Program-made: the position numbers and the translations under genes
The notes under the pieces: generated by a model
What the model was told of the DNA's origin: nothing
What the model saw: only the letters and a program-made list of their open reading frames with translations
The model's database searches: none
Assembly: GCF_014279655.1 (NCBI RefSeq)
Contig: NZ_CP047946.1
Location: 310,001 to 374,000, forward strand
Length of the DNA stretch: 64,000 bases
Reading direction: 5' to 3'
Source: Synechococcus sp. ROS8604
Lineage (GTDB): Bacteria > Cyanobacteriota > Cyanobacteriia > PCC-6307 > Cyanobiaceae
In this document: one piece after another, positions 12,596 through 57,600 of the stretch
Layout of the letters: each line of letters begins with the position of its first letter
Numbering within the stretch: the first letter of the stretch is position 1

Positions 12596-12599
12596 GCTG

Positions 12600-40175: not shown

Positions 40176-40334
40176 ATGAGACCGTCAAAGCCCACCTCAG
40201 CGAACGTGGGATGAAGATGCGCCAAGGCACAATCGTGGATGCCACCTTGATTGCTGCTCCCAGCTCGACCAAGAACAAGGAGGGGAAGCGTGATCCAGAG
40301 ATGCACCAGACCAAGAAGGGCAACCAGTGGTATC

Positions 40335-40358
40335 ACTGCTTCGCAGAAGGCTTCGCCT
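40335..40358 (+). repeat. 24-nt repeat, copy 3
   Basis: In-frame segment between NQWY and YGMKVHAG, encoding the extra residues HCFAEGFA. Begins ACTGCTTCGCAGAAG and contains GCTTCGC twice, 12 nt apart. A diverged relative sharing AGACG.AGTC with the inverted copies may start at 40680, at the later frame break. Confidence 0.7.
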
Positions 40359-41030: not shown

Positions 41031-41939
41031 TTAAGTGCCGCTTATCTGATAACGGCATCGGGTGAGGATGCTGGCAAATGCCTCTTCAAGCTGCACGAGC
41101 TGTTCAGCAGTGAGCTCCTCTTTCCCTTCACCGCTGCGGCCGGAGCGGAAGAAGCGTTCACAGCCATCGGGGCGTTCGGAGAAGCCTCCTTCCTTCTCCT
41201 CCTTGGCCTGCAGCGTCTGAAAGCTGGTGTTGCGTACTGCCTCGGTAATGAGCTCAGGCTCTTCTGGCAATTCCAGAAAGCGGGCCAGCCGGCTGAATTG
41301 GAGTTGCGGCTCGGCAAGGAGATCCTCGTAGCGAAGCATCAGTATGGGGATCTGCTCTTGATCAAGCCAGCTGTGCACATGGTTGGCCCAGGTGCCCATG
41401 AACTGGCGCACCTGTTGGGCGCCCCGTTTGGTGGAGCGAAAGAGGCCGGCCTGCTCATCCAGCAGAAAGGCCACACAACGCTCAAGAGGCCAGGAGAAGT
41501 AATGGCTGAGCGACACGGCCACATCGGCGGGATGACGCATCACCACCACCGCACCGCGGCAGCCTTCCACTGGCACCACCGGGCGAACTCCGGAATCTGG
41601 GCTCACAAAGGCGTCATGCACCTTGTGATAGCGAAGGCATTCGGAATAAAGCGCCTGCTGATGTCCTGCCCTGCCGCGAACTTTGTCGAGCTCGGCCCAA
41701 CTCAGATCGCTGCTGTCGATCCCCAGTTGATCATCCAGCCAGTGGCGGCTGCTCACGATCGAGCCAGTGGCCAGGTCGCCGTTGAGGCGCAGCTCCTGCT
41801 CCTCCTGTTGGGCCGCTGCTGTGGCTTCTGCGCTGTTGAGGCCGGCAAGGCGGCGCAGCTCGGTGATGAACACCCGGCACCAGGTGTTGCCGGATTTCGG
41901 GTAACTGGCCAAGTACCAGTAGGGCTCAGACGCGCTCAT
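41031..41939 (-). CDS. Sulfotransferase, candidate lasso-peptide tailoring enzyme
   Basis: 302 residues. WYLASYPKSGNTWCRVFITE is the canonical PAPS 5' loop of cytosolic-type sulfotransferases, AVVVMRHPADVAVSLSHYF the 3'-phosphate region. It overlaps the kinase gene (41936) by 4 nt, so the two are one operon. The stop TAA is shared with the IS target duplication. Sulfotransferases occur in some lasso-peptide clusters, and the gene context suggests it acts there; a role in surface glycans is the alternative. Copy 2 of the module has no such gene. Confidence 0.8.
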   Translation of the reverse strand: MSASEPYWYLASYPKSGNTWCRVFITELRRLAGLNSAEATAAAQQEEQELRLNGDLATGSIVSSRHWLDDQLGIDSSDLSWAELDKVRGRAGHQQALYSECLRYHKVHDAFVSPDSGVRPVVPVEGCRGAVVVMRHPADVAVSLSHYFSWPLERCVAFLLDEQAGLFRSTKRGAQQVRQFMGTWANHVHSWLDQEQIPILMLRYEDLLAEPQLQFSRLARFLELPEEPELITEAVRNTSFQTLQAKEEKEGGFSERPDGCERFFRSGRSGEGKEELTAEQLVQLEEAFASILTRCRYQISGT

Positions 41940-42919
41940 TTCGTTTGCTCTTCAGTTGTCTGGGCTTCTGCCGCGGCGCTGAGCAGAGATTGCCCCTTCA
42001 GCCAGGTCTGCATCGCTGCGATCCCCCTGGGCGTGGGCAACGTGGCGAGAGGCGCTTCCTGCAGCCGCCGCGCCAGGGCCATGAAGTTTGCACCCTCCTG
42101 ACCAAGACCACGCACGAAACGCCGCCGGAAGGCCTGATTGCGCAGGCACAGCGCTGCCTGCTTTTGGCTGCTGATGCGGGTGATACGGCTGTCGTCCGGG
42201 TCGTTGCTGTCCCGGCGTTGCTGCCGGATCAGGTAAAGAGCTCTAAGCAGGCAGGGCTGCACGGCGCGCTCGATCGCCTCACCCAGCAGCAAGTATTTCT
42301 GCATGCCCTGGCGGATCGGCGGCAGCGCCTCCGGATCGAGCCCGAAGGCTTTGGCTGCGTCATGCCAGAGCTTGATCCGCGGAATGCCTGGCAATACCTG
42401 GCCATCAGGCGTGATTGATACCAGATCATCGGCCAGAAGCCGCCAGCCCTGCTGCATCAGCGCATAGGCAAGGGTGGATTTGCCCGCACCGGAGTGGCCC
42501 ATGCACACGATGGCTTCGCCGTCGCGTTCCAGGGCATTGCCGTGCAACACAAGCATGCCTCGTTGAATCATGAGGGCGCCAACGGCGGAACCCAGCAGGA
42601 AAGTGCGCAGGTCTTGATCGCTGACGCTCAAATCAGCCCGTTGCCAAGCGATCTGCTCTGCGTTGCTGATTCGGAAGCGTCCGATGCCTTCCACCTTGAG
42701 GCGTAGATCGCCGCGGGTCATCTGCAGAAACGGCGTGTCGTGGGACCCACCCGCCAGCTTTGGCCAGCGCTGCGGATCCTCTTCCCGGATTGTGATGCTT
42801 GCGCTGGGAGCTGCCTCAGCGGCGTCGAGTTCCGCTTGCGGCAGCTCCGGAATCAGCAGCCCCTCGGAAGCCCAGTGGAGAGCGAATGCGTGGTAAAAGT
42901 TGCTCCCCTTGGTGCTCAT
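41936..42919 (-). CDS. HPr-kinase-like protein, lasso-peptide kinase type (copy 1)
   Basis: 327 residues from the ATG at 42919. GMLVLHGNALERDGEAIVCM leads into the P-loop GHSGAGKSTLAYALMQQGWR and then LLADDLVSITPDG, the HprK/P catalytic fold. Full HprK has an extra N-terminal domain that is missing here, as in the kinases that phosphorylate the C-terminal Ser of paeninodin-type lasso peptides. Both candidate precursors in this locus end in Ser. Start codons of this gene and the divergent nucleotidyltransferase are only 8 nt apart. GC-rich, unlike copy 2. Confidence 0.82.
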   Translation of the reverse strand: MSTKGSNFYHAFALHWASEGLLIPELPQAELDAAEAAPSASITIREEDPQRWPKLAGGSHDTPFLQMTRGDLRLKVEGIGRFRISNAEQIAWQRADLSVSDQDLRTFLLGSAVGALMIQRGMLVLHGNALERDGEAIVCMGHSGAGKSTLAYALMQQGWRLLADDLVSITPDGQVLPGIPRIKLWHDAAKAFGLDPEALPPIRQGMQKYLLLGEAIERAVQPCLLRALYLIRQQRRDSNDPDDSRITRISSQKQAALCLRNQAFRRRFVRGLGQEGANFMALARRLQEAPLATLPTPRGIAAMQTWLKGQSLLSAAAEAQTTEEQTK

Positions 42920-42927
42920 GATTGTGA

Positions 42928-44181
42928 ATGAGAGCAACAATGTTCCCACCATGTTCGCCTGTGTACCCACCGGCTCTGGTCACACCTATTGCAAGTGAAA
43001 CGCTGGCGGCTGTTCGAGCACTGACTGCATGGGTGCTGCAGCGTGAACGGGCCACTGAGGTCGGATCTGTGCCGCCTCCTGCGTCAGAAGCACTGCGCGA
43101 GCAGCTTGCGGCCTTGCCGCCAGCAGCGCTGTTCCAAGGAATCCAAAGACACCGCCTGCACTTGTTCCTGCAGGGGGATCCTGCTGTGGGCGATCTGCTG
43201 CCAGGCCTACAAGCGGAGCTCCAGCGAGCAGCACGCCGCGAAGTGATGGCAGCCCTTGCCCTGGCCAGCCTCACCCGGGAAATGGCCGTGTTGTTTGCAG
43301 AAGCAGGCATCCCTTTGCTGGTGATCAAAGGCATCCCTCTGGCCTTGCAAACCACCGGTTCAATCACGGCCCGCGGCCGAGGCGACTGCGATCTGTTTGT
43401 GGATCCCTCTCAGGTGGGTGCGGCGATCGCCTTGCTGCAATCAGTGGGCTTTGGGTTGAGTTACGGCGCTAGTTGCGTGGGAGATGACTCCGCAAGGGGG
43501 CGTTACAGCCGCTTTGTGTCGATCGAAATCTCCTTACACAGGGATGTTCATAACCATCGCCAGTGGATCGATCTGCACTGGCATGCAACGTGGGCTCGCG
43601 GGGTATTACCGCGGTTTCAGGAGCTCTGGCAGCGCGGAGAAGAGCTGCCAATCAATAGACAGTTGGTCAGAACACTGTCGCGCCGCGATGCCTTGGTGCA
43701 TGCCTGCTGCCATGCGGCGGTGGATCGCTACATGGCCCTGCGCAATTTGGTGGACATCGATCGGTTCGAGCGGGCGCTCCCCCCTGCTCAGCTGGTTGAA
43801 CTGAGCCGCCTGCGCACGGTGCGAAAGAGCTGGCAGGCTATGGACGATGCGTTCAAGGAAAAAAGCGCTTCGTGGCGTTTCGGCAGAGCTAATGCAGTAC
43901 GCCTTAAAGCTCAGAGAGCACAACAGCAGCCTTGGCGCAGCTTGGGTGATGGTGGATGGACTGTGACGAATCGCCTGCGGTACTTCGCTCACATGGTGAA
44001 TCTCAGCCACCACCCATTACATGTTTTTTCAACGCTGATTCGCCAACTCATAACCCCAGTGGATTTAATTGATCCGCAAACGGGTGACATGCGTTCTATC
44101 CGTCAGGTGGTGTTGAGGCGTGCCGGAAAACTACGGCGCCGGCTTGAGGCTCAAGCCGAATCACCTGATCGGCCTGATTGA
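42928..44181 (+). CDS. Nucleotidyltransferase family protein (NTP_transf_5 type), copy 1
   Basis: 417 residues. IPLLVIKGIPLALQTTGSIT and ARGRGDCDLFVDPSQVGAAI show the G-R-G-D-x-D-L catalytic motif of the uncharacterised nucleotidyltransferase family often found with lasso-peptide kinases. HWHATWARGVLPRF and RDALVHACCHAAVDRY follow. The ATG at 42940 or a later codon may be the real start given the 8-nt divergent gap. Convergent with the ABC remnant, whose end it overlaps by 86 nt; copy 2 has the same geometry. Confidence 0.8.
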   Translation: MRATMFPPCSPVYPPALVTPIASETLAAVRALTAWVLQRERATEVGSVPPPASEALREQLAALPPAALFQGIQRHRLHLFLQGDPAVGDLLPGLQAELQRAARREVMAALALASLTREMAVLFAEAGIPLLVIKGIPLALQTTGSITARGRGDCDLFVDPSQVGAAIALLQSVGFGLSYGASCVGDDSARGRYSRFVSIEISLHRDVHNHRQWIDLHWHATWARGVLPRFQELWQRGEELPINRQLVRTLSRRDALVHACCHAAVDRYMALRNLVDIDRFERALPPAQLVELSRLRTVRKSWQAMDDAFKEKSASWRFGRANAVRLKAQRAQQQPWRSLGDGGWTVTNRLRYFAHMVNLSHHPLHVFSTLIRQLITPVDLIDPQTGDMRSIRQVVLRRAGKLRRRLEAQAESPDRPD

Positions 44182-44371
44182 TCAGCTCCGGGTCATGAGT
44201 GCTCACGAGCACCAGTCGCTCACCAACACGCTCTCGAATCACGCTGCGCACCTGATCTGCCGCTGTGGCGTCCAGAAACGCCGTGGGTTCATCGAGCACG
44301 TCCACAGGCAAGTCCCGCAGCCAAGCGCGCAGCAAGCCGAGGCGGTGGATTTCGACGCTGCAGACTCTCAA
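44096..44371 (-). pseudogene. Remnant of lasso-type ABC transporter (copy 1), C-terminal end only
   Basis: About 85 residues matching the last ~90 of the intact transporter at 47040: EIHRLGLLRAWLRDLPVDVL, DEPTAFLDATAADQ and VLVSTHDPELINQADQVI, i.e. Walker B and H-loop. The homology stops just inside the signature motif (expected SGGEIHRLG, present CSVEIHRLG), so everything upstream was deleted at about 44360. Cannot function. Confidence 0.88.
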
Positions 44372-44425
44372 GACCGTAAGGCCTTTGCTGCAGGGTGTTA
44401 TTAAAGTCAGGGTCCAATCCTTTGC

Positions 44426-44457
44426 CGGAGAGAACCAAAGCTCTCCGCTGCTTTTTT
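44426..44457 (+). terminator. Rho-independent terminator
   Basis: Perfect 7-bp stem CGGAGAG/CTCTCCG (44426-44432 with 44441-44447), 8-nt loop, then CTGC and six T. It would stop rightward transcription from the copy-1 nucleotidyltransferase gene. It lies in the junction between the two modules. Confidence 0.72.
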
Positions 44458-44574
44458 CCTGGTCTGCGTCCCATCACACAGCACCTATGGGGGGACCAGT
44501 TGGTCAGCCGCCTTATGTCATGCAGTGTTATTGGTGAAGGGGGATCGTGATCTCACCAGGCATTGAGCAGGCTT

Positions 44575-44787
44575 TGGTTATTGCATGAACTTCAAAAGCT
44601 GGAGAGCTGTTTTGGACGGGACCGCACACGAGAGGATCGTTGGGGACCAAGATCTTTGGATCTTGATTTGTTGTTTTGGAGTGACTTTCGCTTTGATCAA
44701 GCCCTTTTGACTTTACCCCACCCACGATTGCATTTGCGTTCTTTTGTGCTTGAACCACTTTTAGAGGCAATGAGAATATTCATTTGA
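44575..44787 (+). pseudogene. Orphan 3' end of a second folK
   Basis: Encodes [40 protein letters not shown] and PHPRLHLRSFVLEPLLEAM, the last ~65 residues of HPPK. The protein is clearly similar to the folK product at 39198, but the DNA is much AT-richer, so it is not a recent copy of that gene. It has no N-terminal half. It immediately precedes the AT-rich module copy 2, as intact folK precedes copy 1. Confidence 0.9.
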
Positions 44788-44971
44788 AATAACTAATGTT
44801 ATGGTTTGGTTTAAGTAATATCTTCGGGGATCAAGGATTATTTTTCCTGCTGCTGACGGAGTTTAGAATGTGCGTTTAGGGGTTAAGGATTTGAAAATCA
44901 TTCGTTGACCTTCCTCAGGGTTAATCGTTGGCTTTTGGGAGGACATTTTGGGAGCACAGTGTTGCGCTAGA

Positions 44972-45906
44972 TCACACCAGTAGATTTTGATTTTTGAGCC
45001 ACTTTTGCATAATTTGAATATCGCCTGGTACTCCCAGGATGGATATAGGTGACTGCTTTAAAATCTTGCTTGATGTCATAAAGTTTGCGCCCTCTTGCCC
45101 CAGTCCTTTAACAAAATTTGGCCTAAATGACTGGTTATGCAAATGGATAGCCATGATTTTCTCGCTTGAAATTTGTGAGATTACGCCTTGGTCATTCTGA
45201 TTCCGCCGTTCAATCAAGTACATGGCTTCAAGTGGTACAGTCTTACTTATGTATCGTAAATTTTTTTTTGAACTAAAAACTTGTCAACTCCAGTCATGAC
45301 AGTCTTTAGTTGACTTGGATTAAGATTAAAAGCGCAAACAGCATCCCTCCAGAGCTTGATCCTCGGCACACCGGGAAGAATCAAGCCGGTCGGGGTTACA
45401 GCAACTAAATCGTCAGCTAATAAATTCCAACCTTGCTGCATCAATGCATACGCCAATGTCGATTTGCCTGCTCCTGAATAACCCATGCAAACAATTGCAC
45501 GATTATGTTTTTCAAGAGCATTACCATGTAAAACAAGAATTCCGCGCTGAATCAAGGCAGCGCCCAATGCGGAACCAAGCATGTACGTTCGAATGGTTTG
45601 GTTGGTGACATTAGAACGCAAGCGACACCAGCTGATTCGGTCTCCGTTAGTGACTCGAAAGCTAATCATGTTAGGAATTGTGAGTCTTAACTCACCTGGC
45701 CTCATCTGAAGATTGGCGGTGTCGGCAAAGATCGGCGTGAGTTCAGGCCAATTTGATTGTTCATCTTGAACAATATTGATTGAACCAGAATAATTATTTT
45801 GCATCTCACTTTTGGCAACAGGTAATTCTGGAATCTTCATGCCTGAAGATATCAACAAGATTCCGAACGCTTCGTAAAAAAAGACGGGTTGTGAGCCAAG
45901 AACCAT
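44972..45906 (-). pseudogene. HPr-kinase-like protein, lasso-peptide kinase type (copy 2), frameshifted
   Basis: Two frames joined at an A9 run (45261-45269 on the plus strand as T). The first (from 45906) has ILVLHGNALEKHNRAIVCM, the P-loop GYSGAGKSTLAYALMQQGWN and LLADDLVAVTPTG. The second (44972-45223) has FVKGLGQEGANFM, as in copy 1 (FVRGLGQEGANFM). One extra A would restore a single protein of about 310 residues. It is therefore a recent pseudogene, a phase-variable gene or a sequencing error. AT-rich. Confidence 0.85.
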
Positions 45907-46015
45907 TGATGGAAAAGGATTACAATTGACGAAGCAACAAAGTGCGTATGATTAGTTTAGCGAGTCATAAGGCAGCAAAGGCACTCGTTGACCGGTCGAG
46001 TCTCAGTTCATTGCT

Positions 46016-47098
46016 GTGGTAAGGCAAGTGCCTTTGTTAGAACTTTTGGCTGCGATCTGGCGACATCGATTACAGATTTTACTTGCAGGTGATCAAGAAA
46101 TTGGAATATTGTTCCCAAAACTTAAATATTTATTAAAAGAAATGGCTCATCAAGAGATTCTTGCTGCTCTAGCCCTTTCAAGTTTAACGAGAGGAATCGC
46201 AGAAGTGTTTGAGAATGCTGGGGTCCCTATGCTCGTGCTCAAGGGGGTCGCATTAAGCAAACAAACTACAGGATCTTTAACAGCCAGAGGGCGAGGAGAT
46301 CTTGATCTGTGGGTGAAAAGCAATCAGGTTGGTGAAGTAATTGCTTTGCTGAAGCATCAGGGTTTTCAGCTCACAGCAGGGGCTAGTTGTGTAGGTGATA
46401 CCAATTTTCATGGCTCTTATTCAGGTTTTGTGTGCATAGAAATATCAATGTTTCGCAACCAAGGTCAACAGACACAGTTCATTGATCTTCATTGGCATCC
46501 CTCACATATCAGAGGGATCTTTCCTCCTTTTGATGCAGTATGGAATCAAAGGGAGAAATTTTATATCAATGAGCAGCAGATTTTCACCCTACCGCTGAAC
46601 TTGTCTTTTATAAATTCTTGTTGTCACGCTAGCAGCGACTGTTGGAGGTCGTTGCGTGACTTGGTTGATGTTGTACGCCTGGGAAGGTGGTGTACGATTC
46701 CTCAACTAACGCCTTGGTCTGCTTTTAGACCAGTACTAAAGACATGTTGTGTGGCGTCTGAATTAACTGAATCATCGCTTTTGAACGCAATAGCTTGCGA
46801 TCCATCTGCGCGAAGTAGAAGAGTTGCTCTTCATGATGCAATGGATGCTCAGTTAAGACCATGCCGATCAACAGTAAGAGGGAGAAAATGGATTTGCCAG
46901 CGTGTAAAAACCCTTTTTCGGAAGCTTAATAGCTATTACCATCCTGAGCATTTTTTCTCAACCCTTTTTTATAGTATAATTACGTCACCAGTATTGTTGG
47001 ATCGTAAGTCTGGTAGATATTATTCATTCCTCCAGATTTTTATGAATAGACTTGATTTATTGATGTATCATCTTGGTTGTCGCGATAGGAACTCATAG
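46016..47098 (+). CDS. Nucleotidyltransferase family protein (NTP_transf_5 type), copy 2
   Basis: 360 residues. VPMLVLKGVALSKQTTGSLT and ARGRGDLDLWVKSNQVGEVI match copy 1, as does FIDLHWHPSHIRGIFPPFDA. The GTG start gives a protein about 60 residues shorter at the N-terminus than copy 1, with alignment beginning at RHRLQILLAGD, so the 5' end may be lost. A short frame at 45948 (MISLASHKAAK) may be a leftover. Its end overlaps the convergent ABC gene by 59 nt. Confidence 0.75.
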   Translation: MVRQVPLLELLAAIWRHRLQILLAGDQEIGILFPKLKYLLKEMAHQEILAALALSSLTRGIAEVFENAGVPMLVLKGVALSKQTTGSLTARGRGDLDLWVKSNQVGEVIALLKHQGFQLTAGASCVGDTNFHGSYSGFVCIEISMFRNQGQQTQFIDLHWHPSHIRGIFPPFDAVWNQREKFYINEQQIFTLPLNLSFINSCCHASSDCWRSLRDLVDVVRLGRWCTIPQLTPWSAFRPVLKTCCVASELTESSLLNAIACDPSARSRRVALHDAMDAQLRPCRSTVRGRKWICQRVKTLFRKLNSYYHPEHFFSTLFYSIITSPVLLDRKSGRYYSFLQIFMNRLDLLMYHLGCRDRNS

Positions 47099-48788
47099 CA
47101 TTTGGTCGGTAATCATCAGTTAAGGCTATTACGTGATCAGCCATCTTGATAATGTGAGGATCATGAGTACTAACTAAGATTAATTTACGTTTAACTCTTC
47201 TCGAAATGATTGATCTCACGATAACAGATGATTCTTCATCAAGAAAGGCCGTAGGTTCATCCAGTATTTCAATGGATTGGTTCCGTAGCCAAGTTCGTAT
47301 TAATCCAAGTCTGTGAATTTCGCCGCCCGAGAATGAAACTTGTGTGAGTGGTAAAGGTTCATCTAAACCATGGGCACGTTCAGCAATGTGCAAGAGTTGA
47401 AGCTCAGATAGCCAATGTTTAATGCTTTTCGACTCTATATTGTGTCCCATCGTGAGATTTTCACGTAAACTTGCCTCAAACAAGACTGAGTTTTGTGGAG
47501 AATATGCGATGTGTCGTCTAATTATCTGTGCACCAATAGAACCCTTTAGATTTATATTGTTGACTTTAGAGCAAACTTTCCAAGAACTGGTATGTTCCGA
47601 AAGCAGACCACAGAATTGATCAATTAAAGTTGTTTTTCCAATCCCAGAAGGTCCGGTTACTACAGTTAGTTGGCCTAATAATAATGGGATAGAAAGATGA
47701 GATGTTTCTGTTTTGTCTTCTGACCAGATTAAGGACGTCCAATGAATTGGTGTAAATAAGTCCTCATCTCTTTGTTCAATGTCTGTTTTTCCAGGAATGA
47801 GGGCAATACTGCGAGTCAATAATTTTCTGCGCCTATGAAGCTCTGAGTAGGCTGGTAACCAACTTAGGCAAATGCGATATGATCTGATGAGGCTGCTGAA
47901 TGATGTGGCAGTTCGATAACCAAACAATAATGTTGTAGCAATAATAGAAGAATCAAGATCTTGTCGAATCCAGGCAAGCCAGCCTCCCATCACCAAAATC
48001 ACCAATGAGTCTCGCCAAGCTGTAAAAAGAGATTGCCGTTTGATCATTATTTGTTGCACTTTACGGTAGTTTGATATGTCATTAATAAAGCGCTTTTTAA
48101 TCCAATCCTCTGCTCCAGCTGCGCGAATGGCTTTAAGATTATGCAGAGCATCACCTACTGTTCGTTGAAGATTACTATTGAGTTGAGTAGAGGTATAGCC
48201 GAGACTCCAACTCTCTGAACGTTGCAATAAGGCTGCTATACTTGTTGAGACAAACGCTAGCAAAAGAGGAACTGCATTCTCTTGATTAATCAACAAAATA
48301 CTTGCCGCATAAAGAATTAGTGATATAAAGTGGCGAATTGTACTAACCGCCTGATTAAGAGCGCCTACTGAAGTATCGATCTCATCCATAAGAAGCGACA
48401 TTAATTCACCTCTTCCAATTTGATTGAGTCCGGAGGTTGAAGATTTTAAAACAAGTGATAGCACTTGTTTTTTTAGTCGATCAGAGAATTCAAAAATTAA
48501 ATTTTGTTGTTTAATTGATGTATAAGCTTGCAAAAGGGTGCGGAATAGTATTAATAAAGACAAGCAAAAAAATGCCTGTCGCAATGAAATATCAATTGAT
48601 AAACTCTGAAAATGTTTAGAGTTATTGCTGAAAAGAATAGATATCCCTAACCCAATACTGACAATTTCAATTAATGACTTCAAGAAAGCGATAAAACCTA
48701 TCAATAAAATATATTTATGTCCAGCCTCGTGAAACAGACGTAAAATTAAAAAAAATAGGATTTTAATTTTAACATGAATTTTTGACAA
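47040..48788 (-). CDS. ABC transporter, candidate lasso-peptide exporter
   Basis: 582 residues. A membrane domain (residues ~10-300, about six helices) is followed by an ATPase domain: Walker A VTGPSGIGKTTLIDQF near 379, Q-loop AYSPQNSVLFEASLRENL, signature SFSGGEIHRLGLIRTWLR near 486, Walker B IEILDEPTAFLDEE near 508, and H-loop LILVSTHDPHI. The gene lies directly downstream of both precursor genes on the same strand, with only 67 nt to the nearer one, the usual position of the D (export/immunity) gene. AT-rich and intact, in contrast to the copy-1 remnant. Confidence 0.85.
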   Translation of the reverse strand: MSKIHVKIKILFFLILRLFHEAGHKYILLIGFIAFLKSLIEIVSIGLGISILFSNNSKHFQSLSIDISLRQAFFCLSLLILFRTLLQAYTSIKQQNLIFEFSDRLKKQVLSLVLKSSTSGLNQIGRGELMSLLMDEIDTSVGALNQAVSTIRHFISLILYAASILLINQENAVPLLLAFVSTSIAALLQRSESWSLGYTSTQLNSNLQRTVGDALHNLKAIRAAGAEDWIKKRFINDISNYRKVQQIMIKRQSLFTAWRDSLVILVMGGWLAWIRQDLDSSIIATTLLFGYRTATSFSSLIRSYRICLSWLPAYSELHRRRKLLTRSIALIPGKTDIEQRDEDLFTPIHWTSLIWSEDKTETSHLSIPLLLGQLTVVTGPSGIGKTTLIDQFCGLLSEHTSSWKVCSKVNNINLKGSIGAQIIRRHIAYSPQNSVLFEASLRENLTMGHNIESKSIKHWLSELQLLHIAERAHGLDEPLPLTQVSFSGGEIHRLGLIRTWLRNQSIEILDEPTAFLDEESSVIVRSIISRRVKRKLILVSTHDPHIIKMADHVIALTDDYRPNAMSSYRDNQDDTSINQVYS

Positions 48789-48855
48789 TATTTATTTCTC
48801 TTTAAATGTTAAACTTGACAGTGCTAACTTTAGCAGAGGTCGAATTGCTAACCTG

Positions 48856-49020
48856 TTACGAAGCGGGGTCGACATTTGATCTATCAGTCATACCCATTTC
48901 ATCCTTATTGTTATTTGCACCCGATTCAGTTTCTTGAAAAGAAATAATTTCAATTTCAGGGGTTTGCCATTCGAGCTTCAAAGGATGATGCGTATTCTTG
49001 TTCATGTATTTGAGGTTCAT
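48856..49020 (-). CDS. Candidate lasso-peptide precursor 1
   Basis: 54 residues from the ATG at 49020 (preceded by TAAGG) or 49 from the ATG at 49005. The leader ends WQTPEIEIISFQETE, which fits the lasso pattern Y/W-x-x-P-x-L/I, and has Thr at -2. The core would begin Ser-Gly: ring segment SGANNNKDE, so Ser1 could close on Glu9 (or Asp8), and tail MGMTDRSNVDPAS. From W to the core the spacing equals that of the paeninodin leader. The C-terminal Ser is the residue phosphorylated in that family. Precursor 2 shares the leader and most of the core. If cleavage is one residue later, Gly1 closes on Glu8. Confidence 0.85.
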   Translation of the reverse strand: MNLKYMNKNTHHPLKLEWQTPEIEIISFQETESGANNNKDEMGMTDRSNVDPAS

Positions 49021-49405
49021 GACCTTAGGATTTTAACATTAACGTCATAGTGCCTTGCTGTCAAGTCATCCATTACTCCAAGGCCAATAAAGTCCTCACA
49101 GGAGCTGAGGTCACTTACTTGCAACTCGGCCTCTTAATCGCTTTAATTGAAAAACCGAAACATCAGCATCTTTAAAAGAACTGGTGGATCTATCCGATTT
49201 GCGGTCAGCATTGTTATATAATACTTGCATGTACGTATAATTAATGCAAAAAAAGATTCATCCTATCTTAGGGCTTTTCAACTATTTGTTTCTCGCACAA
49301 GAAATCTCGCAGACCCATAGTAAAGATGTGCTATTCAGAATTAGTTGAATCTAAATCCAGATGCTATCAAATGTTGATATTTGATATTATTTTTTTGTCC
49401 TAATT
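49021..49405 (-). other. Gap between the two precursor genes
   Basis: 385 nt, AT-rich. The only frame of note is a 39-codon one (49111-49230, minus) starting MQVLYNNADRKSDRS. It has a vague resemblance to the precursor tails but no leader motif, and I do not call it. The promoter of precursor 1 is probably here. Confidence 0.4.
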
Positions 49406-49555
49406 TCAAGAGGCAGGCACATCTGATCTATCAGTCATACCCATTTCTGCTCTATTGTTAAATGCACCCGATTCAGTTTCTTGAAAAGAAATAATTTCAA
49501 TTTCAGGGGCCTGCAATTCGAGTTTCGAGGGTTTGTCAAGTTTCGCGTTCATCAT
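49406..49555 (-). CDS. Candidate lasso-peptide precursor 2
   Basis: 49 residues from 49555, or 48 from the second ATG. Leader LQAPEIEIISFQETE (the aromatic residue is Leu here), then core starting Ser-Gly: ring segment SGAFNNRAE with Glu at position 9 and no Asp8, and tail MGMTDRSDVPAS. Glu9 is thus the only acceptor common to both precursors. The C-terminal Ser is conserved. Differences from precursor 1 are concentrated in the ring (N4F, K7R, D8A) and near the end, as expected for paralogous lasso cores under diversification. Confidence 0.85.
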   Translation of the reverse strand: MMNAKLDKPSKLELQAPEIEIISFQETESGAFNNRAEMGMTDRSDVPAS

Positions 49556-49682
49556 TTTTCTTTACACCCTATCACCACAATGCCTTGCTCTCAAGTCGTA
49601 ACTTGCAGTTAGCAAATACGATTTGATGGCAATGGCTCACATAAAAAGATTTTATTTCGTTCGTAGGTGCGGATAGTGATCT

Positions 49683-49997
49683 TCATGTGTAATTGATTGA
49701 GTTGCATTCAAGATTATTAGGCAAAATCTGAATGGCTGCTGGTTTTTGATTAGTTACTTCTAATTGTTGCAGTCTCATGAGTGTCCATTGCAAATGGCGA
49801 TTGTCTGTGGGTGAGGCTTTCAAGACCTTATTATGTGATACATCTGTTGTGTTTGTTCCGATAATCTTCAGTGTTTGGCGATTTTTGATGATGATTTGAA
49901 GGCATATTGCCTCATCAACCCAGTATTTAAGATTAATGTGTACTGCCTGCATCATCTTGGCTTGCAAGAAATTACCTGTAGACTTTGCGATCGTCAA
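49683..49997 (-). CDS. Hypothetical protein in the lasso locus
   Basis: Up to 104 residues from a TTG, or 90 from the ATG pair (MMQAVHINLKYWVDEAICLQ). No family recognised. I compared it by eye with the B1 (RRE/PqqD-like) and B2 (transglutaminase-like) proteins expected in lasso clusters and saw neither the RRE pattern nor the Cys-His-Asp triad with H-A-W. It lies upstream of precursor 2 on the same strand. May be non-coding. Confidence 0.3.
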   Translation of the reverse strand: MTIAKSTGNFLQAKMMQAVHINLKYWVDEAICLQIIIKNRQTLKIIGTNTTDVSHNKVLKASPTDNRHLQWTLMRLQQLEVTNQKPAAIQILPNNLECNSINYT

Positions 49998-50226
49998 GTC
50001 TTGTAAATATATTTAACGGATAACTTTCAAACCTGGAATGCGTTGCCACACTGATTTTTCAGAGAATGTACTTTCATTCTTCGCTAGATCTTTGGTTTTA
50101 TTCACTCGTTTGCTTCGTAAGCAGTAAGGCAACGACCTATCCACTCCCTAAACCATGCATTGGTATAGATAAGGCAGTTCGAATGGAAAGAGCTCTTTGT
50201 TATCTATAGCTCTCACTACGCCCTAT

Positions 50227-50850
50227 TCATGCCAATCTGATTCTTCTTGTTATATTTACAGCCAATGTCAATAACTCTTCAAACTTTTCTTCTGCATAAT
50301 CTGAATTAGACCAGACAAAGTCATCTCTATTCTCCGGATCTAGAACACGGGCGCGCATCTGACTGTTGTGAACATTTGCTGGGGTAACGACGGTTCTGCG
50401 CTCGAAGCGTGATCTCCATCAATGTAGATACTGTTCTCGTATCCTTAATGATTAACATTTTTTTTCACCCCACGATCATTAAGATCCTGCCGCAGGTCGC
50501 TTGGGATGGCCTTCCATTCGTTGGGCTAATTCGCTTCCTTGATGATTTTATTTCCAGATCGAGTATTTCTCTGCGTAGGAACAGGACCAAGAGTGACATC
50601 AATCATCTGAGCACCTTGGGCTCGCAGACTCTGCGCTCGAAGTTGCTGTTCAAAACAATTGAAATGTTCTTTAATAATGCAGGCATTGCCAAACAGTTCA
50701 CGAAACAATCAGATGGTTGTTGCATCTGGAATTGCGTTCGCCACACCAAGGATGATGAATTCCTCGAAAGGCCGCCTGTTGTAGACTAGGAATTCAAGCT
50801 CAGCATCATTGTGGTTAAAAAGCTGCTTCTACACAAACATTTGCGCCCCA
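50227..50850 (-). pseudogene. Relic of an IS5-type transposase, heavily decayed
   Basis: Read on the minus strand, pieces in several frames give an IS5-type protein: KQLFNHNDAELEFLVYNRRP, then FEEFIILGVANAIPDATTI, a TGA in place of the expected Trp, then LFRELFGNACIIKEHFNCFE, AQGAQMIDVTLGPVPTQRNT, and finally VVTPANVHNSQMRARVLDPE. At least three stops and two frame changes interrupt it. The 5' end may reach 51040 but is unreadable. A different IS from the two others in the island. Confidence 0.8.
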
Positions 50851-51104
50851 GCGGAGCATTCCTTGTCTTACTTCCCTTGCGTTTTCGCTTAGAGTTTATC
50901 CCTGTTCATGCAGTGACTGAAATGTTTTCCCACGGAATAAACTGGAGAGAGTCGTCAATACAGATTTTTCGCGTGAATCTTTTAGATCCTCTGCTGTTCA
51001 TCCAAGAATTCACTGTCTCCTGCTTTGAAAAACGCACCGACTCTAAATTTAGCTACTAATTTTAAATAGATAGTCGCGTTTATGAATTCTCTGTGGCGTA
51101 TTTA

Positions 51105-52085
51105 TTAAGCCAACCCTTCATTTATTGTCCAATTCGCAGTGATTACATCTAAAATGTTTGCGGTATTGGCGAATGCGTTATCTTCAAACATTGTTTCATA
51201 TCCCAAGTCTTCAAGGACGCCTAAAGTTGTTTTCGATAAAAGATTGGTCGAATCTAGTGTACGAGTCATGATCTCATTACGGGGAAGTGCTAAATTATTT
51301 TGTTCCCAATGCATACCATTGTCCGGATTGATAAGGAGATCGAATTCTTCGCTATAAACACCTTGTGCAATGCCTTCTTGGTAGGCCTTTTGCCCATGCA
51401 GGCCTGTATAGATATTTGAATCATCTACAAGGGAATATGCTTTTCTATTCGCACTATGAAAACCAATTGTGTGAATCATCTCATGAAGAAAGAGATCGTC
51501 AAGTAATTCTTTCTCTGCCATCGTGTTTACATCCGCGGAATCGATTGCAATTAGTCCTTTAGAAGGCATGCGTGAGCTGCCTCTGGAATCAATAATTTGC
51601 GACCAACCTTTTCCTCTGCCTTCATCATCTATTGCTTGAAGGCTTAGTTCTATATTTATATCATCAATGAAGTTACCTCTGTATTTGGTATCTTTAATGT
51701 CTCCCACAATTAATGTAGATATTAATTCAGCCATTGAAATAGCCTGAAATCTGTATTCATCCGTCCACCCTTCGCCAGAAAATAAGAGATCGATATTGAA
51801 TCCACCTTCAACCCCTGATGTGTAGTCATAGGCTATTGGTTCTCTGTTATTGGTTGTTTTATCTTTGGGAAATGAATTCGGATTATCTATTACGATGATG
51901 CTTTCTTCTGATAATGCATCGATTGGATCAGAGACTGAATCATTGTAAATTAATTGTTGTTCATTGCTCCCGTCAGAGATGCCTGTGTTGGATTCATCTG
52001 GAAATCCCGATAAGACATGATCGGATGAATAATTATAGGTGTGATCTAGGGAGTTTTCGAGCAGAGGTGCGGTGAAATAAATCAT
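51105..52085 (-). CDS. Putative secreted metzincin-type metalloprotease
   Basis: 326 residues. HEMIHTIGFH near residue 203 is the zinc motif H-E-x-x-H-x-x-G-x-H of metzincins, and NEIMTRTLD about 70 residues later supplies the Met-turn. Overall spacing recalls leishmanolysin-like (M8) or M10 proteins of cyanobacteria. The N-terminal ~90 residues are Ser/Asp-rich and low-complexity, with no standard signal peptide, so non-classical (type I) export is possible. Its role in the lasso locus is not known. Leader removal is normally done by a cysteine-type B2, so it is not an obvious substitute. Confidence 0.65.
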   Translation of the reverse strand: MIYFTAPLLENSLDHTYNYSSDHVLSGFPDESNTGISDGSNEQQLIYNDSVSDPIDALSEESIIVIDNPNSFPKDKTTNNREPIAYDYTSGVEGGFNIDLLFSGEGWTDEYRFQAISMAELISTLIVGDIKDTKYRGNFIDDINIELSLQAIDDEGRGKGWSQIIDSRGSSRMPSKGLIAIDSADVNTMAEKELLDDLFLHEMIHTIGFHSANRKAYSLVDDSNIYTGLHGQKAYQEGIAQGVYSEEFDLLINPDNGMHWEQNNLALPRNEIMTRTLDSTNLLSKTTLGVLEDLGYETMFEDNAFANTANILDVITANWTINEGLA

Positions 52086-52493
52086 TTTATTGTTTTGGTT
52101 ATTCCAATTTTATACACACTCTTTTGTTTGCAATTTTAGGGGGTGATTTGGTTTTGGTGAGAAATGAATGAGATGTTCGTAAGGTGAATCTGGACAAACG
52201 GGGTTTAGCGGCGGTAGTGAGCAGAAATGGGAGACCTTTGGCCGTGAATTACCTCTGAGGCCGTTTTCTGAGCACTGTTGCTTGTTGATCTCCTGTTCAA
52301 CCACTTTGGGCTGGTTTTGAGGCTGAATCGAGGTGCTCAGAGAGACCAAGCACCTGGTCAGGCTGTTGCGAGTAATTGGCGTCGGGCCTGGAATAGGTTC
52401 GACAGTGCCGCAAGCACGTTGATTTTGCTGCGGTTCTAGTGGCTAAGCCATGCTCGACCTTGGGTCGAGGTAAGGGTCGTAGTCAGCTCGTAG
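52086..52493 (+). other. Non-coding gap left of the second IS
   Basis: A Pro-rich 79-codon frame (52110-52349, minus) lacks a ribosome site and recognised features, and is not called. Just before the IS, GTAGTCAG occurs twice in tandem (CGTAGTCAGCTCGTAGTCAG). No promoter or RNA gene seen. Confidence 0.4.
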
Positions 52494-52494
52494 T

Positions 52495-54239
52495 CAGGGT
52501 CTTCTGAATAAAGCCAGATCATTTGCGCCCCAATGGATCTGAGCAATTTCTGGCGGTAAAATGTACGCAAACGGGTCCATTTGCGCCCAAAAGCCGCCCG
52601 GAGTTTTCCACATGTATCGGCGCGAGCATCGTCATCAGCTCTCGTTCAAGGATTTCTTCCTGCCATTTGGTGGACAACTCTCAGGTGACAATCGCTGGAT
52701 CAAGCTGGCTTAGCTGATCCTGTGGGACGCGCTGGAGGCCGACTATGCGGCGCAATTTTGCAAGGGCTTTGGAGCACCGGCAAAACCCTTTCGAATGGCA
52801 CTGGTTGCATTGATCATCAAGGCCCGTCTCGGGCTCACGGATGAAGAACTGGTCGAGCAGATCAAGGAAAACCCATACTTCCAGTTCTTCATCGGCCTGG
52901 AAGCATTCCAGTATTCGGCGCCGTTCGATTCATCGATGATGGTCTATTTCCGCAAGCGCCTACCGGAAGCCGTTGTGAATGACTGCAATGAACGAATTGT
53001 GCGCCATGGCCCGAAAGTGATTCGCTCATCCGATTTCCAGGGCCCAGGCGATATCAATGGCAGTGGTGGTGGATCGACCAGTTCTGCAGGCCAGCCAAAA
53101 TCATCCTCGCAGAAGCAGCCTAATCAGGGATCACTTTTGATCGATGCCACCTGCGCGCCTGTAGATATCCGTCATCCAACAGATCTATCACTGCTCAATG
53201 AAGCGAGGGAGGCGACTGAGATTCTGATTGATGCGATGCATCCTCAGGTCAGAGAAAGCTTTGGCCATAAGCCGCGTACGCACCGCAAACAGGCGAGGCG
53301 GCAGTTTCTTGCTGTTGAGAAGAAAAAGAGACCCCGTATCAACAAGATACGCAAGGCCATCAAGCAGCAGCTTGGCTACCTCAAGCGGAATCTGGCGAGC
53401 ATCGACAGCCTGATCGCTTGTGGTGGATGCCTTCTGGCCGCCGGACGGCATATCTATCAGAAGTTGCTGGTGATCAGCGAGCTGGTCCGCCAGCAGACAA
53501 TTCTCTATCACGCAGACAGTAGAAGCATCCCTGATCGCATCGTCAGTCTCGGCCAGGCCCATATCAGGCCGATTGTTCGTGGGAAAGCTCGTTGCAATGT
53601 TGAGTTTGGAGCCCTAGCCCAAAGGGCTTCCGGTTACGGTAGATCTCAATCTCTGTCAGCAGCGAGGGATTCACTTTTCTCGATCGCCTGAGTTATGACC
53701 CCTACAACGAAGGAGAAGACCTCAAGGCTCAAGCAATGGCCTATCGCCGCCGTCACGGTCATTACCCGGAAGTGATCTGTGCTGACCAGATCTCGCGCCA
53801 ATCGAGCTTTCTGTCAGCGTCATGGAATCCGTTGAAGCGGCCCGCCTCTGGGACGGCCGAAGAACGATCCTTAGTTGGTAGCCGCCGAGAAGCAGCAGTT
53901 CATCGATGACCAGCGCCAAAGGAATGCCGTTGAAGGCAAGATTGGACAAGGCAAGCGGCGCTTTGGATTGGGTCTGATCCGTGAGAAGCTCGCCATCACC
54001 CAGGGTTCAATGATTGCACTGAATGTGCTGGTGATGAACCTCGAGAAGCTGCTGGAGCTTCTTTATCTCTTTTGTGCACTCTGCTGGCAACTCATGGTCT
54101 CTGCTGCACGGGCTTTGAGCTCCAACAACAGAGGGCTGAGTTATCAGGTGAACGGGGCTTGAGCATCGCTCAATTGCTGCTCAGGCCAGTTCGTTCTGCT
54201 TCATCTCTCCTGTAACTCACTTTCTCAGGAAGCCCTAGT
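52495..54239 (+). mobile_element. Second IS5/IS1182-type insertion sequence, degenerate
   Basis: About 1.75 kb. Left end near 52495 reads AGGGTCTTCTGAATAAAG inward; the right end, read inward from 54236, is AGGGCTTCCTGAGAAAGT, an imperfect inverted repeat (12 of 18). No certain target duplication. Contains one broken transposase gene. Confidence 0.65.
52612..54162 (+). pseudogene. IS5/IS1182-type (DUF772) transposase, disrupted
   Basis: Begins MYRREHRHQLSFKDFFLPF. A TAG at 52711 replaces a probable Glu codon, then the frame continues with FQYSAPFDSSMMVYFRKRLP (DUF772) and LLIDATCAPVDIRHPTDLSL. After RCNVEFGA near 53614 an extra ~27 nt, containing AGCCCAAAGGGCT, shifts the frame. The expected SISVSSEGFTFLDRLSYDPYN resumes downstream in another frame. 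Near 53793 about 8 nt are missing (CADQI...RANRAFCQRHG), and another TAG replaces a codon near 53873. The tail RQRNAVEGKIGQGKRRFGLG is intact. Not functional. Confidence 0.85.
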
Positions 54240-54779
54240 CAGAGATGCCGAGCTGCTTGCCATCCATTGCAGACGGGCTTGATTCCCAGGGTCTCCTTCG
54301 CTTCCCTTAACTTTAATAGTCAATAATATTATGATCTAAAGTAAAATTTTCATTGCCATTTGTATAATGCATTGCCTGCTAAACTTTTTTGGTTCTGATA
54401 CTTTTGTTCAAATTTCATTGAATAGCATTAGAGGCTTTGCCTTGCTTTTGGCCGTTGTACAGAGCTGTTTGTTTTTCCGCGAATAGTAATCTTAAAATTT
54501 TTCATCAAGGCGATAGGATCACTTTTTTCTTCATCGAACGATAGACGATTGAGTTATATAGTGATTTATTGATGGTTTTTTGTCCGTATTGTCTATTTTG
54601 CGCGATTGATTTGACTTGCCGTGTTTGGGGTTTTAGCGATCGGAAGGATATTGATTGGTAGTGTTGCATTTATCAAGTGGCTTTGTCATATCAAGACTGA
54701 AGCGCAATTAAGAGGGTGAACAATGCTCTTGACCATGAGTCAAAGGGTCGTTATGATTTAATTATAAGGTCTTTTTATT
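54240..54779 (+). other. Non-coding AT-rich gap upstream of the cyclase gene
   Basis: 540 nt, strongly AT-rich, no frame of more than about 30 codons, no RNA gene seen. A stop at 54765 lies in the cyclase frame. TAAGG (54765-54769) could be the ribosome site for the TTG at 54780. Confidence 0.45.
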
Positions 54780-56342
54780 TTGTTTGTTCCAACGAAAGAT
54801 CCGTGTCCACTCCCCCCTGGCATCTATCATACTGATGCATGGAACCGTAGGCCGTTATTTATAGTAAACAATTTGCTTGTTGATTGCTGGGAGGAAGCCT
54901 ATGCGTTACACGGTGAGCCTTGTCTCGACGATGTTAATCCTGCCTATGTAAAGTCGTTGATTACTCATGAGTCCAATGCTAATGTCTCACCTTATAAGCT
55001 AATTAAGCGTATTCCACGCTCGCATTTTGTTCTGAATTCTGATGATAAGGATATTTGTTGTTACTCAACTCCCCCCTTTCGGAGTGGCAGTGGCCTTCCT
55101 AGGATGCATGAAAAAGAACTTTATGAGTATATTCGTTTAACTGTTGTTAATAGTATTAGAGGCCAATTGGGATGCGATGCTTCAAACATAGCTTGTGAAC
55201 ATAGTAGTGGCTTGGATTCAAATGCCATCATGGGATGTATTGTTAATGGAATAGGAATTGCCCCTGACAAGATTCATACTATTACATGGATGGAATCTGT
55301 TGATGATATATACATGCCTCCTATGCGTCAAAATTTTGATTTAATTGATCGTCAATGTCACGAAATTGTGAGTCGCGTTCCGTATTGCTCCTCTTTTAAT
55401 TTTAATGGACTATGTAATCAAGATCTGAAAATATTTGGGTGTCCGCCTCAGCATGTTTCTTCTTTTGAGGAGCTGAAGTTGCTTAATGCTAATCATTGTT
55501 CTGTGTTTTTTAGTGGCTTTGGTGGTGATCAAGCACTGAGTCATCATGGTAGGAATGTAGGTACAGACTTAGCAACATTTCATTCATTGAAGGCCTTCCA
55601 TCAATGGATGGGTGCTCAATGCTTTCCTTTAAGGCATTTTCTATCTCGATTTCTGGCTTCGAAAAATAGATATTGGGCGAGGTCCCGTACGCTCCGACTT
55701 GATTCAAAAACATATTCATCTTTTGAAGATCTTTTGGTTGATTCCTTAACCTCAAGCGGGCGTAATTGGTTGGGTCCTGTCTCTGCAAGAGCTTACCCTT
55801 GGGAGCTTGATTCTTATTCCCCCTTGAAAATATCGTTAGAAAATCGTATTTTAGCAGATTGGATTGCAGTTCGAATGGAGGAAGAATTTCGAGCAGCTGC
55901 GTATTTCAATATTCATAAGGTTTTCCCGTTTTTAAATGAGCAAGTTGTTTCTACATTGCTTAATCAAGAGGCATTGCTGTTCCGTGATTCTGTTAAGACA
56001 GGGAATGGCCGACTCGTTCATCGAAGAGCCTTTGCCCCATATTTACCATTATGTCTGGATGATTTACCAGATAAGCTTAGGCCGTTTTCGCCAGAAGTGC
56101 GTGATATAATTGATAACGAGCCTGCTCTTAATATAAAAGAGTCGTGTTTGTTTTTCTTGGGACTGTCTGAATTGCACCCTCAAGTTTACCGTTATTGGGA
56201 TGTCGACATGATTAAAACCAGTGTCGATCCGTTTCTTCATTCTGGTAAAGCGACTTATCTTCAATCTAGGGATATCTTTAATTGTCTGCGTACTATTAAT
56301 GTTTTAAGTAATTGGTGGAAAAAGCTTGATGATCGCGGTTAA
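54780..56342 (+). CDS. Asparagine-synthase-like protein, candidate lasso-peptide cyclase
   Basis: 520 residues. PYKLIKRIPRSHFVLNSDD is the end of the glutaminase-like N-domain, and CEHSSGLDSNAIMGCIVNGI contains the ATP-pyrophosphatase motif S-x-G-L-D-S of asparagine synthetase B and lasso C proteins. FSGFGGDQALSHHG (FSG-x-G-G-D) is a second active-site loop. C proteins adenylate the ring Asp/Glu and close the macrolactam. The N-terminus is odd: the only start is TTG, no nucleophilic Cys2 is present (as in lasso cyclases), and ~60-80 residues of the usual N-domain seem missing, so 5' truncation is possible. It is on the plus strand, opposite to the precursors and exporter. Confidence 0.72.
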   Translation: MFVPTKDPCPLPPGIYHTDAWNRRPLFIVNNLLVDCWEEAYALHGEPCLDDVNPAYVKSLITHESNANVSPYKLIKRIPRSHFVLNSDDKDICCYSTPPFRSGSGLPRMHEKELYEYIRLTVVNSIRGQLGCDASNIACEHSSGLDSNAIMGCIVNGIGIAPDKIHTITWMESVDDIYMPPMRQNFDLIDRQCHEIVSRVPYCSSFNFNGLCNQDLKIFGCPPQHVSSFEELKLLNANHCSVFFSGFGGDQALSHHGRNVGTDLATFHSLKAFHQWMGAQCFPLRHFLSRFLASKNRYWARSRTLRLDSKTYSSFEDLLVDSLTSSGRNWLGPVSARAYPWELDSYSPLKISLENRILADWIAVRMEEEFRAAAYFNIHKVFPFLNEQVVSTLLNQEALLFRDSVKTGNGRLVHRRAFAPYLPLCLDDLPDKLRPFSPEVRDIIDNEPALNIKESCLFFLGLSELHPQVYRYWDVDMIKTSVDPFLHSGKATYLQSRDIFNCLRTINVLSNWWKKLDDRG

Positions 56343-57039
56343 CCCTTGAGTCAAAATTTAGCGGATCGATTGGTTTTCGAGTTTTCCCATTGGTTCTTAT
56401 CTGTTGTGTTGCATGACTGTCGTCAATCCGAATGATTTCCTTCGGTCTTGTTGATTCAATGCTTTCTTAAACTATTTTAAGGCTGTCGTTTTAAGGAGTT
56501 TTCGTTCGAATGAGGTAACCCTTGGTTGATACCCTTTCCTGACTCACATGCTTCTTTTTGATTCAACGAACATAGGGCCTGTATGGACGTTCGTTAGATT
56601 TATTTGCAGGACTAATCGCTCTTGTAAAGCAGTTAAGAGTCTATTTCGCAATATTGTTCCCGATCTAGCTTTAGGTGATGCAATGATTGTTTATATTCAG
56701 GCGTCTTCTGTTCTGCCTTTGGCACAGAATATTCATCTGAGGTGAATGTGTGATTTTGATGCTTGAGGAGGTCTTGGCTTTGCTTCGATTGGATTGTCAT
56801 GCATTATGGGTTGTTTTTTGAGTCGATCAAAATGGAGTTTTAGTGCCATGAATTTGTGCTTTAAGTGGTGACAGGATTGTATTGCTGAGAATTTAAGATC
56901 TTGTATATTTTGGGTTTTCTTTCTTTGTTGATTCAATTTGGCTGCGGAGTTGCTCTCTAGTCTAATGCTTGATCGACTAGCTGAAACTTACTTTTTGTGT
57001 GCCCTCCGCCATGCTTAGTTTATTGATTTCACGTGATCG
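56343..57039 (+). other. Non-coding gap at the right edge of the island
   Basis: 697 nt, AT-rich up to about 56950, then the base composition returns to that of the core genome. A 65-codon frame at 56548-56745 (MLLFDSTNIGPVWTF) sits where B1/B2 genes would be expected after a cyclase, but shows no recognisable motif and no ribosome site. No tRNA gene or clear attachment site seen. Confidence 0.4.
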
Positions 57040-57600
57040 ATGGAACTTCTTCCACCTTTGGAACCATCACAGTGTCTTGAGACCCTCGAGACCATGGATG
57101 CGTGCAAGATTCGTTTCGAGCGCAATCGCATCCGCTTGCCGATGGGGGTGGAAGGAACCTTTGGGATCATTCGCCACCCCGGGGCTTCCTTGGCGGTTCC
57201 GATCACCGCTGACGGCCAGGTGGTGATTTTGCGCCAATACCGTTTTGCAGTGCAGGCCCGTCTCCTTGAGTTTCCTGCAGGCACCCTTGAAGAGGGAGAA
57301 GATCCTTTGGAATCGATGCAGCGAGAGCTTGCAGAAGAAGCTGGATATAGCGCTGCCCGTTGGGATTCACTCGGGCCGATGTTGCCTTGTCCTGGCTACT
57401 CCGACGAGGTGATTCATTGCTTTCTGGCGCGGGAGCTCACGCGTTTGGACCATCCACCAGCTGGCGATGAGGATGAGGATCTGGAGGTGATCTTGATGCC
57501 TCCGTCCGAGCTGGATGCCCGTCTGGCGTCCGGTGCTGAATGGCTGGATGGCAAGAGCGTCACCGCCTGGTTCCGTGCCAAGCAACTGCTGGGTCTCTGA
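57040..57600 (+). CDS. NUDIX hydrolase, ADP-ribose pyrophosphatase type
   Basis: 186 residues. The NUDIX box is complete: GTLEEGEDPLESMQRELAEE followed by AG. VVILRQYRFAVQARLLEFPA upstream of the box is typical of NudF-like ADP-sugar pyrophosphatases. Cytoplasmic, hydrolysing ADP-ribose or related nucleotides. First core gene right of the island. Its TGA overlaps the photolyase ATG at 57600. Confidence 0.9.
   Translation: MELLPPLEPSQCLETLETMDACKIRFERNRIRLPMGVEGTFGIIRHPGASLAVPITADGQVVILRQYRFAVQARLLEFPAGTLEEGEDPLESMQRELAEEAGYSAARWDSLGPMLPCPGYSDEVIHCFLARELTRLDHPPAGDEDEDLEVILMPPSELDARLASGAEWLDGKSVTAWFRAKQLLGL

Follow-up and report, generated by a model that had tools for sequence, protein, structure and literature searches.

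A probable paeninodin-type lasso-peptide pathway divided between two genomic islands in the picocyanobacterium Synechococcus sp. ROS8604

Paeninodin from Paenibacillus dendritiformis and its kinase-bearing relatives have discrete B1 and B2 proteins, a cyclase, an exporter, an HPr-type kinase and a C-terminal Ser, all of which recur in the system considered here, according to the accounts in PMC8498205, PMC9266682 and PMC5067487. In two of these accounts the linear precursor is phosphorylated at its C-terminal Ser by kinases of the paeninodin type, and such nucleotidyltransferases put a hexose on that phosphate (PMC8498205, PMC9266682). Pseudomycoidin, from Bacillus pseudomycoides, is treated there as a case in which a kinase and a nucleotidyltransferase serve the C-terminal Ser (PMC8498205, PMC9266682), a likeness that is predicted from genes on our side; unlike it, our system has two nucleotidyltransferase genes, a sulfotransferase and a split locus. 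B1, B2, C, D, a kinase and a nucleotidyltransferase are also shared with the Bsf cluster of Bradymonas sediminis as described in PMC10368454, where Tyr(-17), Pro(-14), Ile(-2) and a phosphorylated Ser3 contrast with the W/L(-15), Pro(-12), Thr(-2) and Ala3 found here. The Lpp RiPPs of Bacillota have an RRE, an HPr-type kinase, an NTP transferase and an exporter in common with our locus, and in the account of PMC13381572 an SpI peptidase instead of B2 and cyclase. A putative sulfotransferase gene at lasso clusters of Firmicutes is mentioned in PMC8498205, citing Zhu 2016, in a passage that states no function for it; here, the gene lies directly next to the kinase and is found again in six related clusters. 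Cyanobacterial lasso peptides are mentioned in general terms in PMC8600333. The sequence-only reading of the DNA analysed here knew of no described lasso peptide from marine Synechococcus, and the open-licence literature that we searched likewise gave none, for Prochlorococcus as well. Marine picocyanobacteria are known for lanthipeptides (prochlorosins).

In our analysis of a 64,000-nucleotide stretch of the genome of Synechococcus sp. ROS8604 (hereafter the window), two small genes, precA and precB, very probably encode precursors of a paeninodin-type lasso peptide that would be produced in trans by genes on two islands with 30 kb between them. A paeninodin-type lasso cluster is what the sequence-only reading had proposed, and peptide and cyclase loci of relatives, the cyclase model and fold, and the kinase motif support it. 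The neighbours it had named, an ABC exporter, a kinase, nucleotidyltransferases and an asparagine-synthase-like protein, are all present (Table 1). While the kind of pathway is known, what is new is a split, mosaic, sulfotransferase-bearing and probably multiply tailored version of it in a picocyanobacterium. It differs from paeninodin in its two islands, its distant sequences, its sulfotransferase and its picocyanobacterial host.

Table 1. Features of the predicted pathway; positions are those of the window unless preceded by C1
Feature	Position	Strand	Remarks
Predicted precursor A (precA)	49406..49555	(-)	leader MMNAKLDKPSKLELQAPEIEIISFQETE, predicted core SGAFNNRAEMGMTDRSDVPAS
Predicted precursor B (precB)	48856..49020	(-)	leader ...LKLEWQTPEIEIISFQETE, predicted core SGANNNKDEMGMTDRSNVDPAS; NF033524 E 0.0077
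ABC exporter (D)	47040..48788	(-)	67 bp downstream of precB, same strand; 46% identity to L080/L081 cluster exporters
GC-rich ABC exporter fragment	44096..44404	(-)	78-79% identity over 67 residues to the sister strains' lone exporters; 55% to that at 47040
Predicted lasso cyclase (C), asparagine-synthase-like	54780..56342	(+)	TTG start assumed; SSGLDS motif retained; 520 residues
HPr-type kinase 1, intact	41936..42970	(-)	62% GC; 69% identity to L080/L081 kinases
Kinase 2, broken (stop and frame change)	44972..45906	(-)	42% GC
Nucleotidyltransferase 1	42928..44181	(+)	PF14907
Nucleotidyltransferase 2	46016..47098	(+)	PF14907; 42% GC
Sulfotransferase	41031..41939	(-)	PF00685; 80% identity to L081 sulfotransferase
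First island	39683..57040	(.)	between folK and NUDIX gene
B1, PqqD-like leader-binding protein (predicted)	C1:397082-397351	minus	PF05402
B2, transglutaminase-like leader peptidase (predicted)	C1:396678-397085	minus	PF13471

The two paralogous ORFs are present at the positions that had been claimed, on the minus strand, and the length given for them, about 49 codons, agrees with precA (49) and with precB counted from an internal ATG (49; 54 from the first ATG). They are 76% identical on alignment and have PEIEIISFQETESGA in identical form. The leader element reads KLEW-QTP-EI in precB and KLEL-QAP-EI in precA, so that the motif Y/W-x-x-P-x-L/I ascribed to both leaders holds for precB (W-x-x-P-x-I) but only incompletely for precA, in which Leu replaces the aromatic residue. 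The Thr at -2 and the core layout, a Ser-Gly start, Glu as ninth residue and Ser as the last, were found in both as described; the combination of lasso leader and core residue 1 with Asp/Glu at 7-9 is thus complete in precB and present in precA with the Leu substitution. The similarity to lasso precursors expected of the leaders in a profile search was found in precB, weakly (NF033524, 15.9 bits against a cut-off of 27; the best curated profile for precB is lasso_PadeA_fam), and not in precA, which has no match in Pfam or NCBIfam. Between the two genes, synonymous differences by the Nei-Gojobori method amount to 10.3 at 29.0 sites and nonsynonymous ones to 16.7 at 118.0 sites, which indicates selection on the protein, the number of sites being small. 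A pattern scan of the window matched 2 of 1262 stop-to-stop frames, exactly precA and precB, with a pattern that was built from these two and their relatives and so is not independent of them; in 100 first-order Markov sequences of window length the same pattern gave 41 matches, 4 of them with a C-terminal Ser.

Direct searches for further copies gave little. Among the 31 genomes of the genus, only the own genome matched, together with a hit in G009 (E 0.47) that has internal stops, and a two-row precursor alignment run against 400 genomes of the family gave 33 matches at E <= 1, none of them trustworthy outside the own genome. The best foreign match of the family search (E 0.0068) sits inside a 325-residue frame and was taken as chance. 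This search is insensitive, since the peptides of the relatives also failed to surface in it. Phage records searched with the precursor region gave no match. That no relative came up at a trustworthy E-value, that the genes are short and that precA matches no family model would all be expected if precA and precB were chance ORFs in intergenic DNA. We think this extremely unlikely, because the two genes form a paralogous pair that shares conserved motifs and lies next to an exporter, and because the same layout is found beside cyclases elsewhere.

The genome as a whole has one cyclase gene, and 7 of the 400 family genomes scanned carry one, with no other genome of the genus among the seven. The predicted cyclase matches the lasso-cyclase model NF033535 at E 3.5e-8 and 32.5 bits, far below the cut-off of 525, and the cyclases of loci L071, L075 and L076 likewise stay below that cut-off. 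Its match to Pfam Asn_synthase has an E-value of 0.065, while homologues are above the cut-off of that model (L071, E 2.1e-8; L076, E 2.8e-11), and the motif SSG-x-DSNA is invariant in all eight aligned cyclases. When the cyclase profile was compared with solved structures the sole match was an Asn synthetase (E 0.39). The structure model (pLDDT 71) has TsnB9 and carbapenam, beta-lactam and asparagine synthetases as its nearest folds (TM 0.39-0.56), which suggests that, as modelled, the protein folds like asparagine and beta-lactam synthetases.

Within the window, neither B1 nor B2 was found. When the complete genome, a single contig of 2.88 Mb, was searched in six frames, there was a single B2-type match (C1:396732-396923, E 8.3e-7, above the Pfam cut-off) and there were four PqqD matches, the best of which (C1:397100-397291, E 1.9e-16, above the cut-off) adjoins B2. 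The pair lies on the same chromosome 30 kb past the end of the cyclase gene (366342), and its distance to precA and precB is about 37 kb. The predicted B1 has lasso_PqqD_Bac as its top NCBIfam model (E 6.8e-16), and its best solved relatives are a lasso PqqD chaperone and TbiB1 (E 1.1e-5 for the latter). For B2 the comparison with solved structures gave nothing of note; its Cys75 and His110 are invariant in nine of nine aligned B2 sequences. The curated NCBIfam cut-offs, which are thresholds for naming and not for mechanism, are reached by neither B1 (58.2 against 80 bits) nor B2 (24 against 33 bits), nor by precB and the cyclase. The biosynthetic genes do not form one cluster, B1 and B2 standing apart from cyclase and precursors, and the sequence-only reading had not included this distant pair. 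As the leader-binding and leader-cleaving enzymes are unlinked from the precursors and the cyclase, a pathway of this sort would escape cluster-based mining.

A contig scan with the cyclase alignment identified seven loci, L080-L086, in Synechococcus UW140, in Cyanobium and Lac Pavin MAGs and in Prochlorococcus sp. AG-347-M18, and the cyclase of the window is homologous to theirs and to that of L076 (G273, 1.7 Mb). Two of them, L082 and L083, are short fragments that contain B1, B2, a cyclase gene and a SET-like gene. The six others (L080, L081, L084, L085, L086 and L076) all have cyclase, exporter, HPr-type kinase and sulfotransferase, and in five of them (L076, L080, L081, L084, L085) B1 and B2 lie beside the cyclase; for L086, whose 13.2 kb start with a truncated kinase at the end of a contig, there was no match to B1 or B2. 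A similar small peptide is encoded in five of these six clusters. It lies beside the sulfotransferase in L081, between sulfotransferase and cyclase in L086 and between sulfotransferase and B1 in L076, and a profile search added peptides in L080 (E 0.0005) and L085 (E 5.9, core SGVYPTNNESINSLTGHS); in L084 the profile found none. The profile was an ungapped block of 12 peptides, to which the spacing of the new L080 and L085 matches leans, and the earlier patterns allowed variable spacing. A loose leader pattern applied to whole loci gave too many chance matches, and narrower searches and the profile were used instead. The peptides at 1339-1491 of L086, from a Prochlorococcus single-cell genome, and at 7991-8206 of L076 are lasso precursor candidates, the latter with Ile at -2, like the Bsf precursor. 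Homologues consistently found without any cyclase had been named as evidence that would speak against a lasso peptide; instead, the peptides share a locus with a homologous cyclase in L076, L081, L086 and L080, and weakly in L085.

A set of 14 peptides was compared, which includes those of L067-L070 and L063-L065 (loci of Cyanobiaceae that match B2 but not the cyclase of the window) and leaves out those of L060 and L062 for their different leader spacing. Position -15 is W or L and position -12 is Pro in every one of the 14, and the residue at -2 is Thr in 12, Ile in one and Ser in one, that of L085. Glu/Asp stands at core position 8 or 9 in 13, the exception being L080, and a C-terminal Ser is present in 11; the peptides of L063-L065 end in Pro, and kinase matches at these loci are only distant. 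The L080 peptide (19963-20196) has a good leader, no Glu/Asp at core 7-9 and its first acidic residue at 12; either its ring is unusual or its core starts elsewhere.

These loci also bear on the alternative of a non-lasso RiPP, in which RRE, HPr-type kinase, nucleotidyltransferase and exporter act on a peptide that stays linear, in the manner of the Lpp family from Bacillota, and the cyclase is unrelated to precA and precB. Such a gene set, with an SpI peptidase, is among those described in PMC13381572, kinase-sulfotransferase-PqqD sets that lack B2 and cyclase occur in the same genome, and the exporter family stands alone in sister strains. However, B2 and a cyclase, whose absence marks the Lpp type, are both in the genome; peptide, B1, B2 and cyclase lie in one locus in L076, L081 and L085; and the cores have Ser1/Gly1 and Glu9. 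We therefore regard a linear product as very unlikely and take precA and precB as lasso precursors in what follows.

The kinase that had been reported close to the precursors exists in two copies, the nearer of which is broken, and it is the GC-rich one that is intact. The latter has the motif LHG...GHSGAGKST...ADD, that is, the His...Lys...Asp-Asp which PMC9266682 and PMC10368454 describe for lasso kinases, and matches HPr kinases among solved structures (E 0.0003). An HPr-type kinase motif and a C-terminal Ser in both cores, the features that define the paeninodin type, are therefore found together. Core position 3 is Ala in precA and precB, so that a Ser3 target like that of BsfK is absent and a C-terminal Ser target like that of PadeK is present. 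The sulfotransferase, a gene that the sequence-only reading did not mention, is the neighbour of the kinase both in the window and at each of ten more kinase loci inspected in the genus (eight in seven other genomes and two in the same genome, none of them beside a cyclase match). This pairing at ten loci without a cyclase suggests a general module that is not specific to lasso peptides. In the present setting the sulfotransferase offers a candidate for a new lasso modification that can be tested.

An exporter homologue was found in 14 of the 30 other genomes of the genus, and in all 11 genomes inspected a lone exporter lies between folK and the NUDIX gene (for example L103 6232-7965; L117-L126). 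The sister strains with a lone exporter have no matches to lasso cyclase or B2. The exporter beside precB was considered as the native gene of this site and rejected, being AT-rich and nearer to the L080/L081 exporters (46%) than to the lone ones (40-42%). The GC-rich fragment resembles the lone exporters (78-79%) and is therefore read as the native remnant. Because sister strains have a member of this family as a lone gene at this very position, export of the peptide by the exporter beside precB is presumptive.

The borders of both islands are visible in comparison with sister strains. The distance between folK and the NUDIX gene is 17.4 kb here and 41-86 bp in sisters G024, G012, G007 and G003, and one ABC exporter lies between the two genes in sister G023, so that the first site is empty in four of five sisters. 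The second island fills 5.8 kb between a Gfo/Idh gene and a GH-like gene, where the gap is <=20 bp in five of five sisters, and it contains B1, B2, a SET-like gene and a gene (L002:8410-9225) which we take to be dioxygenase-like from its HxD...H pattern. The last of these has no Pfam match of note; the sole sequence lead for the SET-like gene is SETD6 (E 0.14), and its structure model has a pLDDT of 40. The precursors, exporter, cyclase, kinase 2, nucleotidyltransferase 2, B1, B2 and the SET-like and dioxygenase-like genes have 37-42% GC, and the sulfotransferase, kinase 1 and nucleotidyltransferase 1 have 59-62%, as compared with 55% for the window and 55-60% for the two genes that border the second island. 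The gene order in L080 and L083 is B1-B2-cyclase-SET-like, and on the second island it is B1-B2-SET-like, with the cyclase missing. The Gfo/Idh and GH-like genes are adjacent in L080 and L082 too, where the lasso cluster lies a few kilobases further. The GC-rich tailoring genes are close to those of L080/L081 (kinase 69%, sulfotransferase 78-80% identity). We infer that one AT-rich cluster was later split and was joined by a GC-rich tailoring set like that of L080/L081.

Several smaller features of the islands were also observed. The folK gene (39105-39683) is 53% identical to folK of the nearest sisters, whose neighbouring genes are 92-94% identical, and a second, 3' folK fragment lies inside the first island (44515-44775). 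Transposase-like frames are present on both islands (window 39962-40681 and 52795-53691; L002 7566-8030), the last being 65% identical to the first over 89 residues; such frames may have moved pieces of the islands. A further gene of the first island, at 51105-52085, matches Peptidase_M8 weakly (E 0.011) and contains the HExxH-like sequence HEMIH.

The separation of B1 and B2 from the cyclase, the broken kinase 2, the exporter and folK fragments and the transposase fragments on both islands could also mean that the pathway is decaying, that is, that precA and precB are true lasso precursors whose cluster has been broken by insertions and whose product is no longer made. This is a tenable possibility that we think fairly unlikely, as the genes for both precursors, B1, B2, the cyclase, the exporter, kinase 1 and the sulfotransferase all have open frames and retain their motifs, and the precursors differ less per nonsynonymous site than per synonymous site. 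If the paeninodin-type pathway is expressed and works in trans, B1 would bind the leader via the KLE-(W/L)-x-x-P-x-I element and the intact kinase would phosphorylate the C-terminal Ser of the linear precursor; nucleotidyltransferase and sulfotransferase might attach further groups. Cleavage by B2 would fall between leader and core, two residues past Thr(-2). The cyclase would activate Glu9 and close a ring between it and the Ser1 amino group, with the tail threaded through, and the ABC exporter would release the product. The calculated monoisotopic masses of the lasso forms are 2193.953 for core A and 2290.954 for core B, those of the linear forms being larger by 18.011; a phosphate would add 79.966 and a sulfate 79.957.

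The three further PqqD genes of the genome, in L078 (G000:C1:1150000-1168000, 6861-11042) and L079 (G000:C1:2428000-2447000, 6038-15723), occur with an HPr-type kinase and a sulfotransferase and without a B2 or cyclase match. We speculate that picocyanobacteria have a mobile, mix-and-match decorating module of kinase, sulfotransferase and PqqD-like binders, used here for an in-trans, two-island lasso peptide with phosphate (or phospho-sugar) and sulfate, and elsewhere in the genome for variable C-terminal tails of beta-rich surface proteins; as a whole we consider this proposal unlikely. Beta-rich proteins, two of 326-328 residues and one shorter frame, are encoded beside the PqqD genes of L078 and L079. 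They end in a lasso-leader-like KKKKWENPTINALTA[ST]PKNRDVRVHD followed by differing Cys-containing tails, perhaps the conserved leader and variable core of another RiPP system.
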